64,000 bases of DNA, from assembly GCA_944321085.1 (NCBI GenBank), contig CALUJY010000011.1, forward strand, positions 1 to 64,000. Reading direction: 5' to 3'. The notes below the pieces were generated by a model. That model was not told where the DNA came from and did not search any database. It saw nothing but the letters and a program-made list of their open reading frames with translations. This document shows positions 35,653 to 40,649 of this stretch, in pieces. Position 1 is the first letter of the stretch, and every line of letters begins with the position of its first letter. Position numbers and translations under genes: made by a program. The DNA comes from an uncultured Barnesiella sp. Its GTDB lineage: Bacteria > Bacteroidota > Bacteroidia > Bacteroidales > Barnesiellaceae_A.

Positions 35653-35705
35653 GATTCTTTCCTTGGTTTTGCAGGGCAGCGTGTGCTGCGCCCCTTTTCG
35701 ACCTG

Positions 35706-35713
35706 CAAAAGTA
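35706..35713 (-). promoter_or_regulatory. -7 promoter box for tsaD
   Basis: TACTTTTG on the minus strand matches TAnnTTTG, about 55 bases before the tsaD ATG. No clear -33 element. It is paired with the divergent tamB-side box at 35790. Confidence 0.45.
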
Positions 35714-35789
35714 CATATTTTATGCCAATTCATGTGCTTCTGCTGCTTATTTCCTTGCAACCGATATTCATAGGGTGCAGAAAAAACCG

Positions 35790-35797
35790 TAACTTTG
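35790..35797 (+). promoter_or_regulatory. -7 promoter box for the TamB-like gene, near-leaderless
   Basis: TAACTTTG matches TAnnTTTG and ends 14 bases before the ATG at 35812, so the mRNA would have a very short leader. It lies inside the longer reading frame that could start at 35683, which argues against that start. Confidence 0.5.
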
Positions 35798-35811
35798 TAG
35801 CCCTTATCATC

Positions 35812-38800
35812 ATGAGAACATTCTTTGTTTTGGTGAAACGCATCCTGCAAGGGACGATTATAACGCTGGTGGCGTTGTATGCCTTGCTTTATGTGCTCCT
35901 CTCGATACCTGCCATACAGGGCAAGGTGCGCGATGTGGGGCAGCATACACTGTCGCAATACTTGGGTGTACCGTTGAAGATAGCAAGGGTAGAAATTTCA
36001 CCTTTCAACAAAGTGGAACTTTTTGGCGTTTTGCTCCCCGACCAACGAGGCGATACGTTGTTATATGCCCATAAAATTGCTGCCGGAATAGATTTATGGG
36101 AGTTGCCCGGCGGGAAAATCGACCTGTCGAATATCCAGCTCTTCGGCCTCGACTTGCGGGTCGTGCGCGATTCGGCAGATGCTCCTACCAATTTGCAATT
36201 TGTTATAGATGCTTTTGTCGATACGACACGCGAAAAGAGCGACCCTGCCCTGAATCTTGCTATTCAATCGGCCGTGATACGGCGTAGCAGCATGCGATAC
36301 GATGTGTTGTCGGCTCCTCGTCAGCCGCAAGGTGTGTTCGATGCCAATCACGTGGCTGTGACCGACCTTTTGGCAACCATGTCGTTGAAAGCCTTCAATA
36401 AGGACTCTGTCAATATTTATATCAAACGATTGAGCGGTAAGGAACAGTCAGGGTTTAATCTCGACCGCCTGACACTTCGGGTAGAGGGTAACCGTCGATG
36501 CATTGCGGCATCGCATTTCTCGGTGCAGACGGGAGGCACACATTTGCATACCGATACCGCTACTATCTTGTTCCCGGCTTCGGCCGGCGGTATTGCACTG
36601 ACCGACAGCACACGTCTGCTCTTTGCCATGAACGATGCCGTTGTTGTACCTTCCGATTTCGCCCCATTGCTACCGGCTTTGCGGCATTTCGATATGCCTG
36701 TCTCGTTTACCTGTATGGTCGGAGGAACACTCGACGATCTCCATGTCCGCGATATTTCGGCGATATGCGGCGACAATGTGGCACGCCTCGGCATGGAGTT
36801 TACGGTACGTCATGCCTTGCAGTCTGACAGCCTGTCGGTAGCCTGCCCCTCGATGATGTTGACGATACGTGAAGGAGGGCTCTCGGCTTTGGCTCGAAAT
36901 CTCAATGTCACCGATGCCCGTACGTTACAGATGCTCGATACATTGGGCAATGTAGCGATAGAAGGTTCGTCGGTCGGACGAATGCCACTTTTCGAAGGTG
37001 ACATACGGCTGCATACCGCAGCTGGAGACATGCAAGTGGATGGAACAGTCCTTCGTAGCGATGACAAGCAGAGTTTCGTTTTCAAGGGCGACATGTTTAC
37101 CGACGGTGTCGACTTGGCAAAGGTCATGGGCGAAAATTCGCAATGGGGCATGGTGGCATTTGACTTGCATGCCGATTGCAACTTATATCCCGATGCTCCG
37201 CCCGCGGGACATTTGTCGGGACATATAGGACGCTTCGATTATAAAGGATACAGTTACGAGAATGTGAAACTCGATGCTGCGTACGCGCGGCGTATGGTAA
37301 GTGGCAAAGTGGCGATAGACGACCCTAACGCCCGTGTCGCCGTGGAGGGTAGGACGCGCATAAACGGTCGCAGCACTTTGGCAGATTTGCGGATTGTTTG
37401 CGACGGTATCGCTTTCGACAAATTGCATTTGAGCGACGCATATCCCGGTTATCGCCTCTCTTTTTCGCTCGATGCGGCTTATACGGGCAATCGCCTCGAC
37501 AATGCTAACGGTTATATCTCTGTCGATTCGTTGCTCTTTACCGATGGCGACTCGCACTTTGCATGGAATCGATTCCGTATTGCTGCGCGTAACGACACGT
37601 TGCCGCAACGCATCGTGGTAGAATCGGATTACATCAACGGTGAAGTGACAGGTCATTATACTTTCTCGTCACTCGGTCGGTCGTTGCGCAATATGGTTGC
37701 AGCCTTGTTGCCTACTGCGGTACCGCCCGAACCGTCCAACTCTCGTCGTCGCAATCGCTCTGTACAGGATAACGATATAGAGTGGCATTTTGTCATTACG
37801 CCGCATGTAGAGATGGCGCAAATCTTGCGTTTGCCTTTTACCATTACCGACCGTACGAGAATAGATGGTTATATACGCGATTTGGAGCAGACAGCCCGCC
37901 TCAATATGGATATACCTAATATGTGGGTGGGAAGTAAACACATAGAAGATGCTGCCGTGTATATCAATCGTCGGGGTGACAAACTCGACTACTCTTTGCA
38001 GGCCGGGTATATCAATAAAAAGAAAATCTCCACGATGTGGAGTGTGCGCGGCGGGGTAGAACACGATAATGTAAAAGTCGGTATCCATTGGAACACCAAT
38101 ACGGCTGCTACCTATTGTGGTGCAATAAGTCTCGATTCACGTATCATGCCGTGTCCGGTACGTCCCGAAGGCGTCGACCTTTCCGTGACAGTGCAACCCA
38201 CGCAATTCGTTATCAACGATACGGTGTGGGACATCAAACCTGCACATATATTGCTGCACGACAAGAATATCATTGTCGACCGGCTTGAACTATCGCGCCC
38301 CTCGCAACACATATATATCGAAGGCGTGGCATCGGAGAATCCTGCCGATACGATGCACATTGACCTACGCGACATCAATCTCGACTATATCTTCGAGACG
38401 CTCAATATCAACTATGTAACCTTTGGCGGACGTGCCACCGGACGGGTCGATGCGGCCAATCTTTTCAGCAAAACGCCCTATCTTGCCACAAACGGGCTCG
38501 ACGTTCGTAATTTTTCGTACAACCATGCCGTTTTTGGCGACATCTCGCTGTTGAGCATGTGGAATCCCGATAACAAGGGTATATTGCTCAAAGGCATCAT
38601 TACGGGAAAGGAGCAAAACGAGAGCTATGTCGACGGCTATATCTTTCCTACACTCGACTCTCTCTCTATCGATTTCAATGTCGACCGTGTGCCGCTGTCA
38701 TTTATTCGTCCGTTTGTGGGGAATATATTGAGTGATGTCGACGGTACGGCATCGGGGCAGGTAACACTCGGCGGAAACTTCAAACGAATATTCCTTACGG

Positions 38801-40515
38801 GCGATGCGTATGCTCATGATTTTTCGTTCGGAGTGCCCTTTATCAACACGCGCTACTATGTGACCGATAGTGTACACTTTACGAAAGAAAGTATTTGGTT
38901 CCGTAACATAGCAGTAGGCGACGGGCGCGGTAATATGGCGCATGCCGACGGAATATTGCGGCACCGTTATTTTGCTAATCTCAGTTACGACATCGATATT
39001 CACGATGCCGTCGATTTGCTGGTATTCAATATTCCGCCGACACCCGGGGCATCGTTTTACGGCACAGTCTACGGGACGGGTGGGGTAGCTATCAAAGGCG
39101 ACGATTTCCATACCGACATAAGCGTGAATATGCTTACCGAGGATAACTCGGAGTTTGCTTTTGTATTGACTAATACGGCCAATGCAGCCGATTACAGTTT
39201 CTTGACTTTCACCGATTCCTCGGCCGAAGCCGCGAAGTCGCGTCGGCAGGTGGTAGCAGAGGTCGACAGCACCGTGATACGCAACAACATGATGATGGAG
39301 AAACACACGGCGGCTCCCAAGCCCAAAAACGTGCTTTACCTTACCGTACAGGCCGATATAACGCCGCAAGCCGATATAACCCTCGTCATGGATGAGGTGC
39401 TTGGCGACAAGATGGAAGCTACCGGCGAGGGCAACATCCGGGTAGAATATAATACGGGCGAAGACGATTTCAAGATGTATGGTTCATATACCGTAGGTAA
39501 CGGAAGTTACAATTTCAGCCTGCAAGATATCATCACACGCGATTTTTCCATTACTTCGGGCAGCACGGTGTCGTTTAGAGGGTCGCCCTTAGATGCTATA
39601 CTCGACATTAATGCCGTCTATTCGTTGCAAGCCAACCTTGCCGACCTCGATGAGTCGTTTGTCACCGAGGGCGAGCTCACGCGCACTACAGTTCCCATAC
39701 ATACTATATTGAAGATTTCGGGCAATCTCACTCGTCCCGATATAGCTTTCGACATAGAGCTGCCTACCGTGAGTGCCGACATCGACAGCAAGATGCGCAG
39801 TATTATCAGTACCGACGAGATGATGAACCGTCAAATTATTTATCTGTTGGCGTTGAATCGTTTCTTTACGCCCGACTACAACACCGGGCAGAACGGCAAC
39901 AACGAGTGGGTGTCGATGGCCTCTTCTACCATATCGTCGTCGTTAGGTTCTATTTTGGGGCAAATCAGTGATAATTGGAATATCTCGCCTAATTTCCGCA
40001 GTGATAAGGGCGACTTTTCCGATATGGAAGTCGACCTTGTGCTATCGAGTCAGTTGCTTAATAATAGGCTCATATTCAATGGTAATTTCGGCTATCGCGA
40101 CAAGCGTTATAATTCTACTAATTTCGTGGGCGATTTCGACATCGAGTATCTCCTTACAGAGAGCGGCAATTTGCGTCTCAAAGGCTATAACCATTTCAAC
40201 GACCGGAACTATTCTATGCGGACAGCTCTTACCACGCAAGGTATAGGTATCATGTATACCCACGATTTCGATTCGTGGCTCAAATTCTTCGACCGCTCGT
40301 CCAAAAGCAAGAAGCGCGATAAAAAACGGAAAGGAGACTCTGCCGCAACTAAGTCACAACCCACCGATACGGTACCGAGCGTTCCGGCCGATACCACGCG
40401 GGTAGTCACTGCTATGCCTGCCGCAGTCGAGCCCCAATCCATCGATACGGTATCGAGCACTCCTGCCGATACGGCGCGAGAGGTTACTGCTATCCCTGTC
40501 GCAATCAAACCATAA
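35812..40515 (+). CDS. tamB: TamB/AsmA-like translocation and assembly module protein
   Basis: 1567 residues: an N-terminal membrane helix (~8-30), a very long beta-rich body with AsmA-like features and a C-terminal TamB (DUF490) domain (~1080-1480: GDKMEATGEGNIRVEYNTGEDDFKMYGSYTVGNGSYNF..., FSITSGSTVSFRGSPLDAILDINAVYSL). Such proteins form a hydrophobic groove across the periplasm for lipid or outer-membrane-protein delivery. The tail after a Lys-rich stretch is two copies of a 26-residue Pro/Thr/Ala repeat. A third in-frame copy follows the stop codon (see repeat entry), so the tail seems shortened by a nonsense change. It is monocistronic, divergent from tsaD. Confidence 0.88.
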   Translation: MRTFFVLVKRILQGTIITLVALYALLYVLLSIPAIQGKVRDVGQHTLSQYLGVPLKIARVEISPFNKVELFGVLLPDQRGDTLLYAHKIAAGIDLWELPGGKIDLSNIQLFGLDLRVVRDSADAPTNLQFVIDAFVDTTREKSDPALNLAIQSAVIRRSSMRYDVLSAPRQPQGVFDANHVAVTDLLATMSLKAFNKDSVNIYIKRLSGKEQSGFNLDRLTLRVEGNRRCIAASHFSVQTGGTHLHTDTATILFPASAGGIALTDSTRLLFAMNDAVVVPSDFAPLLPALRHFDMPVSFTCMVGGTLDDLHVRDISAICGDNVARLGMEFTVRHALQSDSLSVACPSMMLTIREGGLSALARNLNVTDARTLQMLDTLGNVAIEGSSVGRMPLFEGDIRLHTAAGDMQVDGTVLRSDDKQSFVFKGDMFTDGVDLAKVMGENSQWGMVAFDLHADCNLYPDAPPAGHLSGHIGRFDYKGYSYENVKLDAAYARRMVSGKVAIDDPNARVAVEGRTRINGRSTLADLRIVCDGIAFDKLHLSDAYPGYRLSFSLDAAYTGNRLDNANGYISVDSLLFTDGDSHFAWNRFRIAARNDTLPQRIVVESDYINGEVTGHYTFSSLGRSLRNMVAALLPTAVPPEPSNSRRRNRSVQDNDIEWHFVITPHVEMAQILRLPFTITDRTRIDGYIRDLEQTARLNMDIPNMWVGSKHIEDAAVYINRRGDKLDYSLQAGYINKKKISTMWSVRGGVEHDNVKVGIHWNTNTAATYCGAISLDSRIMPCPVRPEGVDLSVTVQPTQFVINDTVWDIKPAHILLHDKNIIVDRLELSRPSQHIYIEGVASENPADTMHIDLRDINLDYIFETLNINYVTFGGRATGRVDAANLFSKTPYLATNGLDVRNFSYNHAVFGDISLLSMWNPDNKGILLKGIITGKEQNESYVDGYIFPTLDSLSIDFNVDRVPLSFIRPFVGNILSDVDGTASGQVTLGGNFKRIFLTGDAYAHDFSFGVPFINTRYYVTDSVHFTKESIWFRNIAVGDGRGNMAHADGILRHRYFANLSYDIDIHDAVDLLVFNIPPTPGASFYGTVYGTGGVAIKGDDFHTDISVNMLTEDNSEFAFVLTNTANAADYSFLTFTDSSAEAAKSRRQVVAEVDSTVIRNNMMMEKHTAAPKPKNVLYLTVQADITPQADITLVMDEVLGDKMEATGEGNIRVEYNTGEDDFKMYGSYTVGNGSYNFSLQDIITRDFSITSGSTVSFRGSPLDAILDINAVYSLQANLADLDESFVTEGELTRTTVPIHTILKISGNLTRPDIAFDIELPTVSADIDSKMRSIISTDEMMNRQIIYLLALNRFFTPDYNTGQNGNNEWVSMASSTISSSLGSILGQISDNWNISPNFRSDKGDFSDMEVDLVLSSQLLNNRLIFNGNFGYRDKRYNSTNFVGDFDIEYLLTESGNLRLKGYNHFNDRNYSMRTALTTQGIGIMYTHDFDSWLKFFDRSSKSKKRDKKRKGDSAATKSQPTDTVPSVPADTTRVVTAMPAAVEPQSIDTVSSTPADTAREVTAIPVAIKP

Positions 40516-40599
40516 CCTGCTGACACGAAACAGAGCAACCCGGCCGATATGGCACGGGTTGCTGTTCTTCTTGCTGATACGCTGCAAATAATAATTCTA
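40366..40599 (+). repeat. Three 78-bp tandem repeats at the 3' end of the TamB-like gene, the last beyond the stop codon
   Basis: Copies begin at 40366, 40444 and 40522 (GATACGG/GACACGA...), exactly 78 bases apart and in the same frame. The first two encode 26-residue units (DTVPSVPADTTRVV.., DTVSSTPADTAREV..). The third is more diverged. Just before each unit the codon is CAA, CAA and then TAA, and this TAA is the present stop (40513-40515). Without it the frame would run to TGA at 40615-40617. Confidence 0.8.
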
Positions 40600-40610
40600 C
40601 CGGCGTTGCC

Positions 40611-40649
40611 GAAGTGAAATCTATGTTGGGTAGGAATAGATTTCACTTC
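40611..40649. terminator. Hairpin between convergent TamB-like and lytTR genes
   Basis: A perfect 14-bp stem (40611-40624 with 40636-40649) with an 11-base loop. T-runs are short on both sides, so it is a probable rather than certain terminator for both genes. Confidence 0.65.

Follow-up and report, generated by a model that had tools for sequence, protein, structure and literature searches.

The gene for a TamB-like protein in the window, the 64,000-nucleotide stretch of DNA from an uncultured Barnesiella sp. analyzed here, ends in a tandem repeat whose last copy is interrupted by the stop codon. The question was whether this arrangement reflects a longer protein tail that was shortened by a change from CAA to TAA, as an earlier note on this DNA had claimed, or a copy that was never translated. 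The features of the locus are summarized in Table 1.

Table 1. Features at the 3' end of tamB, in window coordinates
Feature	Position	Strand	Remarks
TamB/DUF490-family gene	35683..40515	+	ORF of 1610 aa from GTG 35683; Pfam TamB match
78-base unit 1, SAATKSQPTDTVPSVPADTTRVVTAM	40339..40416	+	holds the genus-conserved end motif QPTDTV
78-base unit 2, PAAVEPQSIDTVSSTPADTAREVTAI	40417..40494	+	58/78 to unit 1
78-base unit 3	40495..40572	+	18 coding bases, TAA and 57 post-stop bases; 48/78 to unit 1, 47/78 to unit 2
Current stop TAA	40513..40515	+	CAA at the same place in units 1 and 2
Open frame past the stop	40516..40617	+	33 codons and TGA; probable former gene end
Terminator-like hairpin, AGCAACCCGGCC-GATAT-GGC(A)CGGGTTGCT, then GTTCTTCTTG	40534..40564	+	inside unit 3; -22.5 kcal/mol
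Perfect 13-base inverted repeat, GAAGTGAAATCTA...TAGATTTCACTTC	40611..40649	.	between convergent tamB and LytTR-type gene

TamB protein and its repeated tail

Bacteroidota TamB is the partner of TamL/TamA and takes part in outer-membrane homeostasis. Judged by its sequence, the product of the gene at 35683-40515 is such a protein, as PF04357 (the TamB/DUF490 C-terminal domain) was matched at residues 1081-1529 with an E value of 2.5e-50 and 172.3 bits, against a curated cut-off of 22.4. Translation probably begins not at GTG 35683 but at a later ATG (MRTFFVLVKR...). The C-terminal strands of TamB are thought to serve as a pseudosubstrate for TamA/TamL, and in F. johnsoniae these strands are followed by a disordered end at which a C-terminal tag was tolerated (PMC12045153). 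The present protein is similar to F. johnsoniae Fjoh_4592 (TamB, PF04357) in that the TamB domain and conserved C-terminal strands are followed by a disordered tail (PMC12045153). Unlike in Fjoh_4592, the tail consists of 26-codon units, of which two and a quarter are translated and which eight congeners lack. In a structure model of low overall confidence, the tail was predicted to be without structure beyond residue 276 of the 350 modelled.

TRF reported a tandem repeat with a period of 78 at 40357-40503, and together with the unit-to-unit comparison this bore out the exact 78-base spacing described earlier. The spacing of the copies placed at 40366, 40444 and 40522 therefore stood, but their register is arbitrary, as the array starts further upstream, at about 40339. 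Because the array spans approximately 40339 to 40572, the TAA lies inside unit 3, as its seventh codon and in frame with the long ORF. Accordingly, the claim of CAA in two copies and TAA in the third was correct, while its placement at a unit boundary was not. The third copy does continue in frame past the stop, and readthrough would add 33 residues, PADTKQSNPADMARVAVLLADTLQIIILPALPK, up to the TGA at 40615-40617; the last 45 bases before the end of this TGA (40573-40617) are outside the repeat. The likeness of unit 3 to the other units is not due to chance, since the best unrelated match to a unit within the window was 38/78 (mean 19, sd 4). In the rest of the genome, no convincing dispersed copies of the unit were found.

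Comparison with other species of the genus

The comparison set consisted of eight other species of the genus (nine genomes counting the source), with TamB at 56-63% protein identity. The gene was present in all eight. Tail repeats were found in none of them; each protein ends in one short motif, such as LPTDTVLTTVPDMLE, QPADTVITITPDILE or QPTDTVLTIMPDILE, which in most cases follows an acidic stretch whose length varies. Thus, the tail is variable and of low complexity, as had been proposed, and the congeners carry a different, unrepeated version. The acidic stretch is rich in Glu and Tyr (EEEYEYEY) and was seen at variable length in the TamB tails of L002, L003, L005, L006, L009, L101 and L104. 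In its place, the source TamB has a basic Lys/Arg stretch and PxDT units.

The earlier note had also suggested looking for CAA at 40513-40515 in related strains. At the level of species, the residue at the stop site is Gln in five congeners, with four CAA codons and one CAG at the motif start, and Leu in three, all with CTN; none has a stop there. Since the eight congeners are without repeats and have Gln or Leu at this site, the array is specific to the source lineage and the TAA is derived. Moreover, the ancestral protein end probably gave rise to the array, because unit 1 holds the QPTDTV with which the congeners' motif starts.

In more distant Bacteroidales, the tails are short, different and unalignable, and the TamB of one relative, L053, stops at KHDWGK, just past the conserved domain. 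Therefore, the tail is variable and, in at least some species, dispensable. A search of viral contigs for relatives gave none. Among the genomes searched, neither another strain of the source species nor a close sister species turned up.

Divergence of the third unit after the stop

Private changes were counted using the three units as mutual outgroups. Over the 18 pre-stop bases, units 1, 2 and 3 have 4, 3 and 2 private changes, respectively. The pairwise identities there are 11, 12 and 13 of 18, units 1 and 2 resembling unit 3 at least as much as they resemble each other. Over the 57 post-stop bases, the private changes number 4, 6 and 16 (binomial p 0.003 for unit 3), and those of unit 3 are spread over the codon positions without bias (5/6/5). 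This pattern fits three units of similar age, of which the third would have been free of protein constraint from the stop onward. The claim of a nonsense shortening was thus supported by the Gln and Leu codons of the relatives and by an excess of change that begins at the stop. The claim that it was recent was not: the 16 private changes past the stop, evenly spread over the codon positions, and a well-formed hairpin resembling a terminator point to an established stop, and the CAA-to-TAA change most likely happened some time ago. Placing the duplication before the stop gain relies on one locus, the congeners being too distant for dating.

The 33 post-stop codons have a codon score of 0.066, which is at the 10th percentile of in-frame stretches of tamB (mean 0.18, sd 0.10), is above 98% of out-of-frame stretches and is reached by about 12% of intergenic stretches. 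Their codon usage is still closer to that of coding sequence than to that of other frames, but it exceeds intergenic sequence only weakly. By a simple count, an open frame of 33 codons is by itself not rare (about 1 in 5). The TGA at 40615 is the probable old stop of tamB; against this reading, the 40573-40617 end gave no significant alignment with the congeners' terminal motif.

Hairpins behind the stop

The hairpin in unit 3 has a stem of 12 pairs, begins about 20 bases past the TAA and ranked 10th of 4264 folding windows by energy; the RNA downstream of the TAA has a favourable fold (z -3.5). Of the 12 pairs, unit 1 retains only 7 and unit 2 only 8, and when either unit was made to decay at random by an equal number of changes, the hairpin was reached in 0-2 of 2000 simulated runs. 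The tail after the stem is only T-rich, its T-run being interrupted, and a simple consensus terminator scan did not return this hairpin. Hairpins of comparable energy (about -22 to -32 kcal/mol) and distance (roughly 20-60 bases past the stop) are present at many further gene ends of the window. On its computed structure, the hairpin is probably the intrinsic terminator of tamB. It is conceivable, though doubtful, that selection made this terminator from the coding repeat unit once the nonsense change had freed it, so that one array would have supplied both a protein tail and an RNA end signal.

The left arm with its flank, AACAGAGCAACCC (40529-40541), agrees at 12/13 bases with AACAGCGCAACCC, the left arm of the hairpins behind tamB in the congeners L005 and L009, which is better than shuffled sequences; this likeness may reflect homology or convergence. 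A genus-wide search for the hairpin sequence gave one match, at the tamB end of G006, with a pattern that misses the window's own hairpin.

The left arm of the inverted repeat at 40611-40649 contains the TGA at 40615, and the repeat follows the stop of the convergent LytTR-type gene at a distance of 22 bases. Because of this site, it may serve the LytTR-type gene or may have been the old tamB terminator. Elsewhere in the window, at 2612-2757, convergent genes have in common one strong bidirectional hairpin (AACAGAGCTGCGCC...GGCGCAGCTCTGTT) with A and T runs at its flanks.

Probable shortening of the tail

The likely course of events is that the tail was duplicated and then shortened by a nonsense change, after which the leftover decayed and came to be used as a terminator. 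A disordered, fast-changing tail lies behind the conserved C-terminal domain, and in the source lineage the ancestral end motif (QPTDTV...) was probably multiplied into three 26-codon units. As the outgroups and rates suggest, a single C-to-T change would then have turned CAA into TAA in unit 3 and removed 33 residues from the protein. The freed 3' piece would have evolved without protein constraint and now holds the strong hairpin. Losing the 33 residues was probably neutral, given how disordered and variable the tail is and given that the L053 protein ends almost at the domain. The disordered, tag-tolerant tail of F. johnsoniae (PMC12045153) and the lack of structure in the modelled tail here point the same way.

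The opposite direction of change, in which unit 3 was always 3' UTR, the gene ended at the TAA, and units 1 and 2 arose by duplication of the gene end with its UTR, the stop becoming CAA and a coding tail being born from UTR, appears improbable. The position of the hairpin in unit 3 and the match of its left arm to L005 and L009 would suit such a history, but that match is short and post hoc, and in those relatives more than 100 bases separate the motif from the hairpin that follows it. Moreover, the CAA position corresponds to Gln and Leu codons of a coding end motif in the congeners, the copy nearest to that motif is unit 1 and not unit 3, and divergence is equal among the units before the stop and accelerated after it in unit 3 only.

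It is also rather unlikely that the stop came first, in a tail of two units, and that the upstream unit was later duplicated into units 1 and 2, the tail having shrunk and re-grown. Units 1 and 2 are indeed the closest pair over the full length, but their pre-stop identity is no higher than that of the other pairs, which fits units that are equally old, with decay that was faster past the stop. As one base decides the matter, an error of sequencing or assembly at 40513 was considered as well, in which case the real protein would run to 40615. This is highly improbable, as the genome is 99.96% complete with 0 contamination in 23 contigs, and neither the codon-blind decay of unit 3 from the stop onward nor a terminator-like hairpin is expected in translated sequence.

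Meaning for gene-end evolution

Movement of gene ends through shifts of the stop codon has been described (Vakhrusheva et al. 2011, as cited in PMC4161906). The tamB case is alike in that a new upstream stop shortens the gene and a 3' piece that was once coding is left behind. It differs in that the tandem repeat allows polarity and decay to be gauged internally and in that the leftover forms a terminator-like hairpin. A literature search for repeat tails shortened by stop gain found nothing specific. The case is tidy but ordinary gene-end evolution, and the function of TamB is unchanged by it. It offers a clean, small example of a moving bacterial gene end, with a seeded repeat, a stop gained by one base and a decaying piece, in which the sister units 1 and 2 show the earlier state of unit 3. 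Should the hairpin prove functional, it would illustrate that a terminator can arise from former coding sequence.
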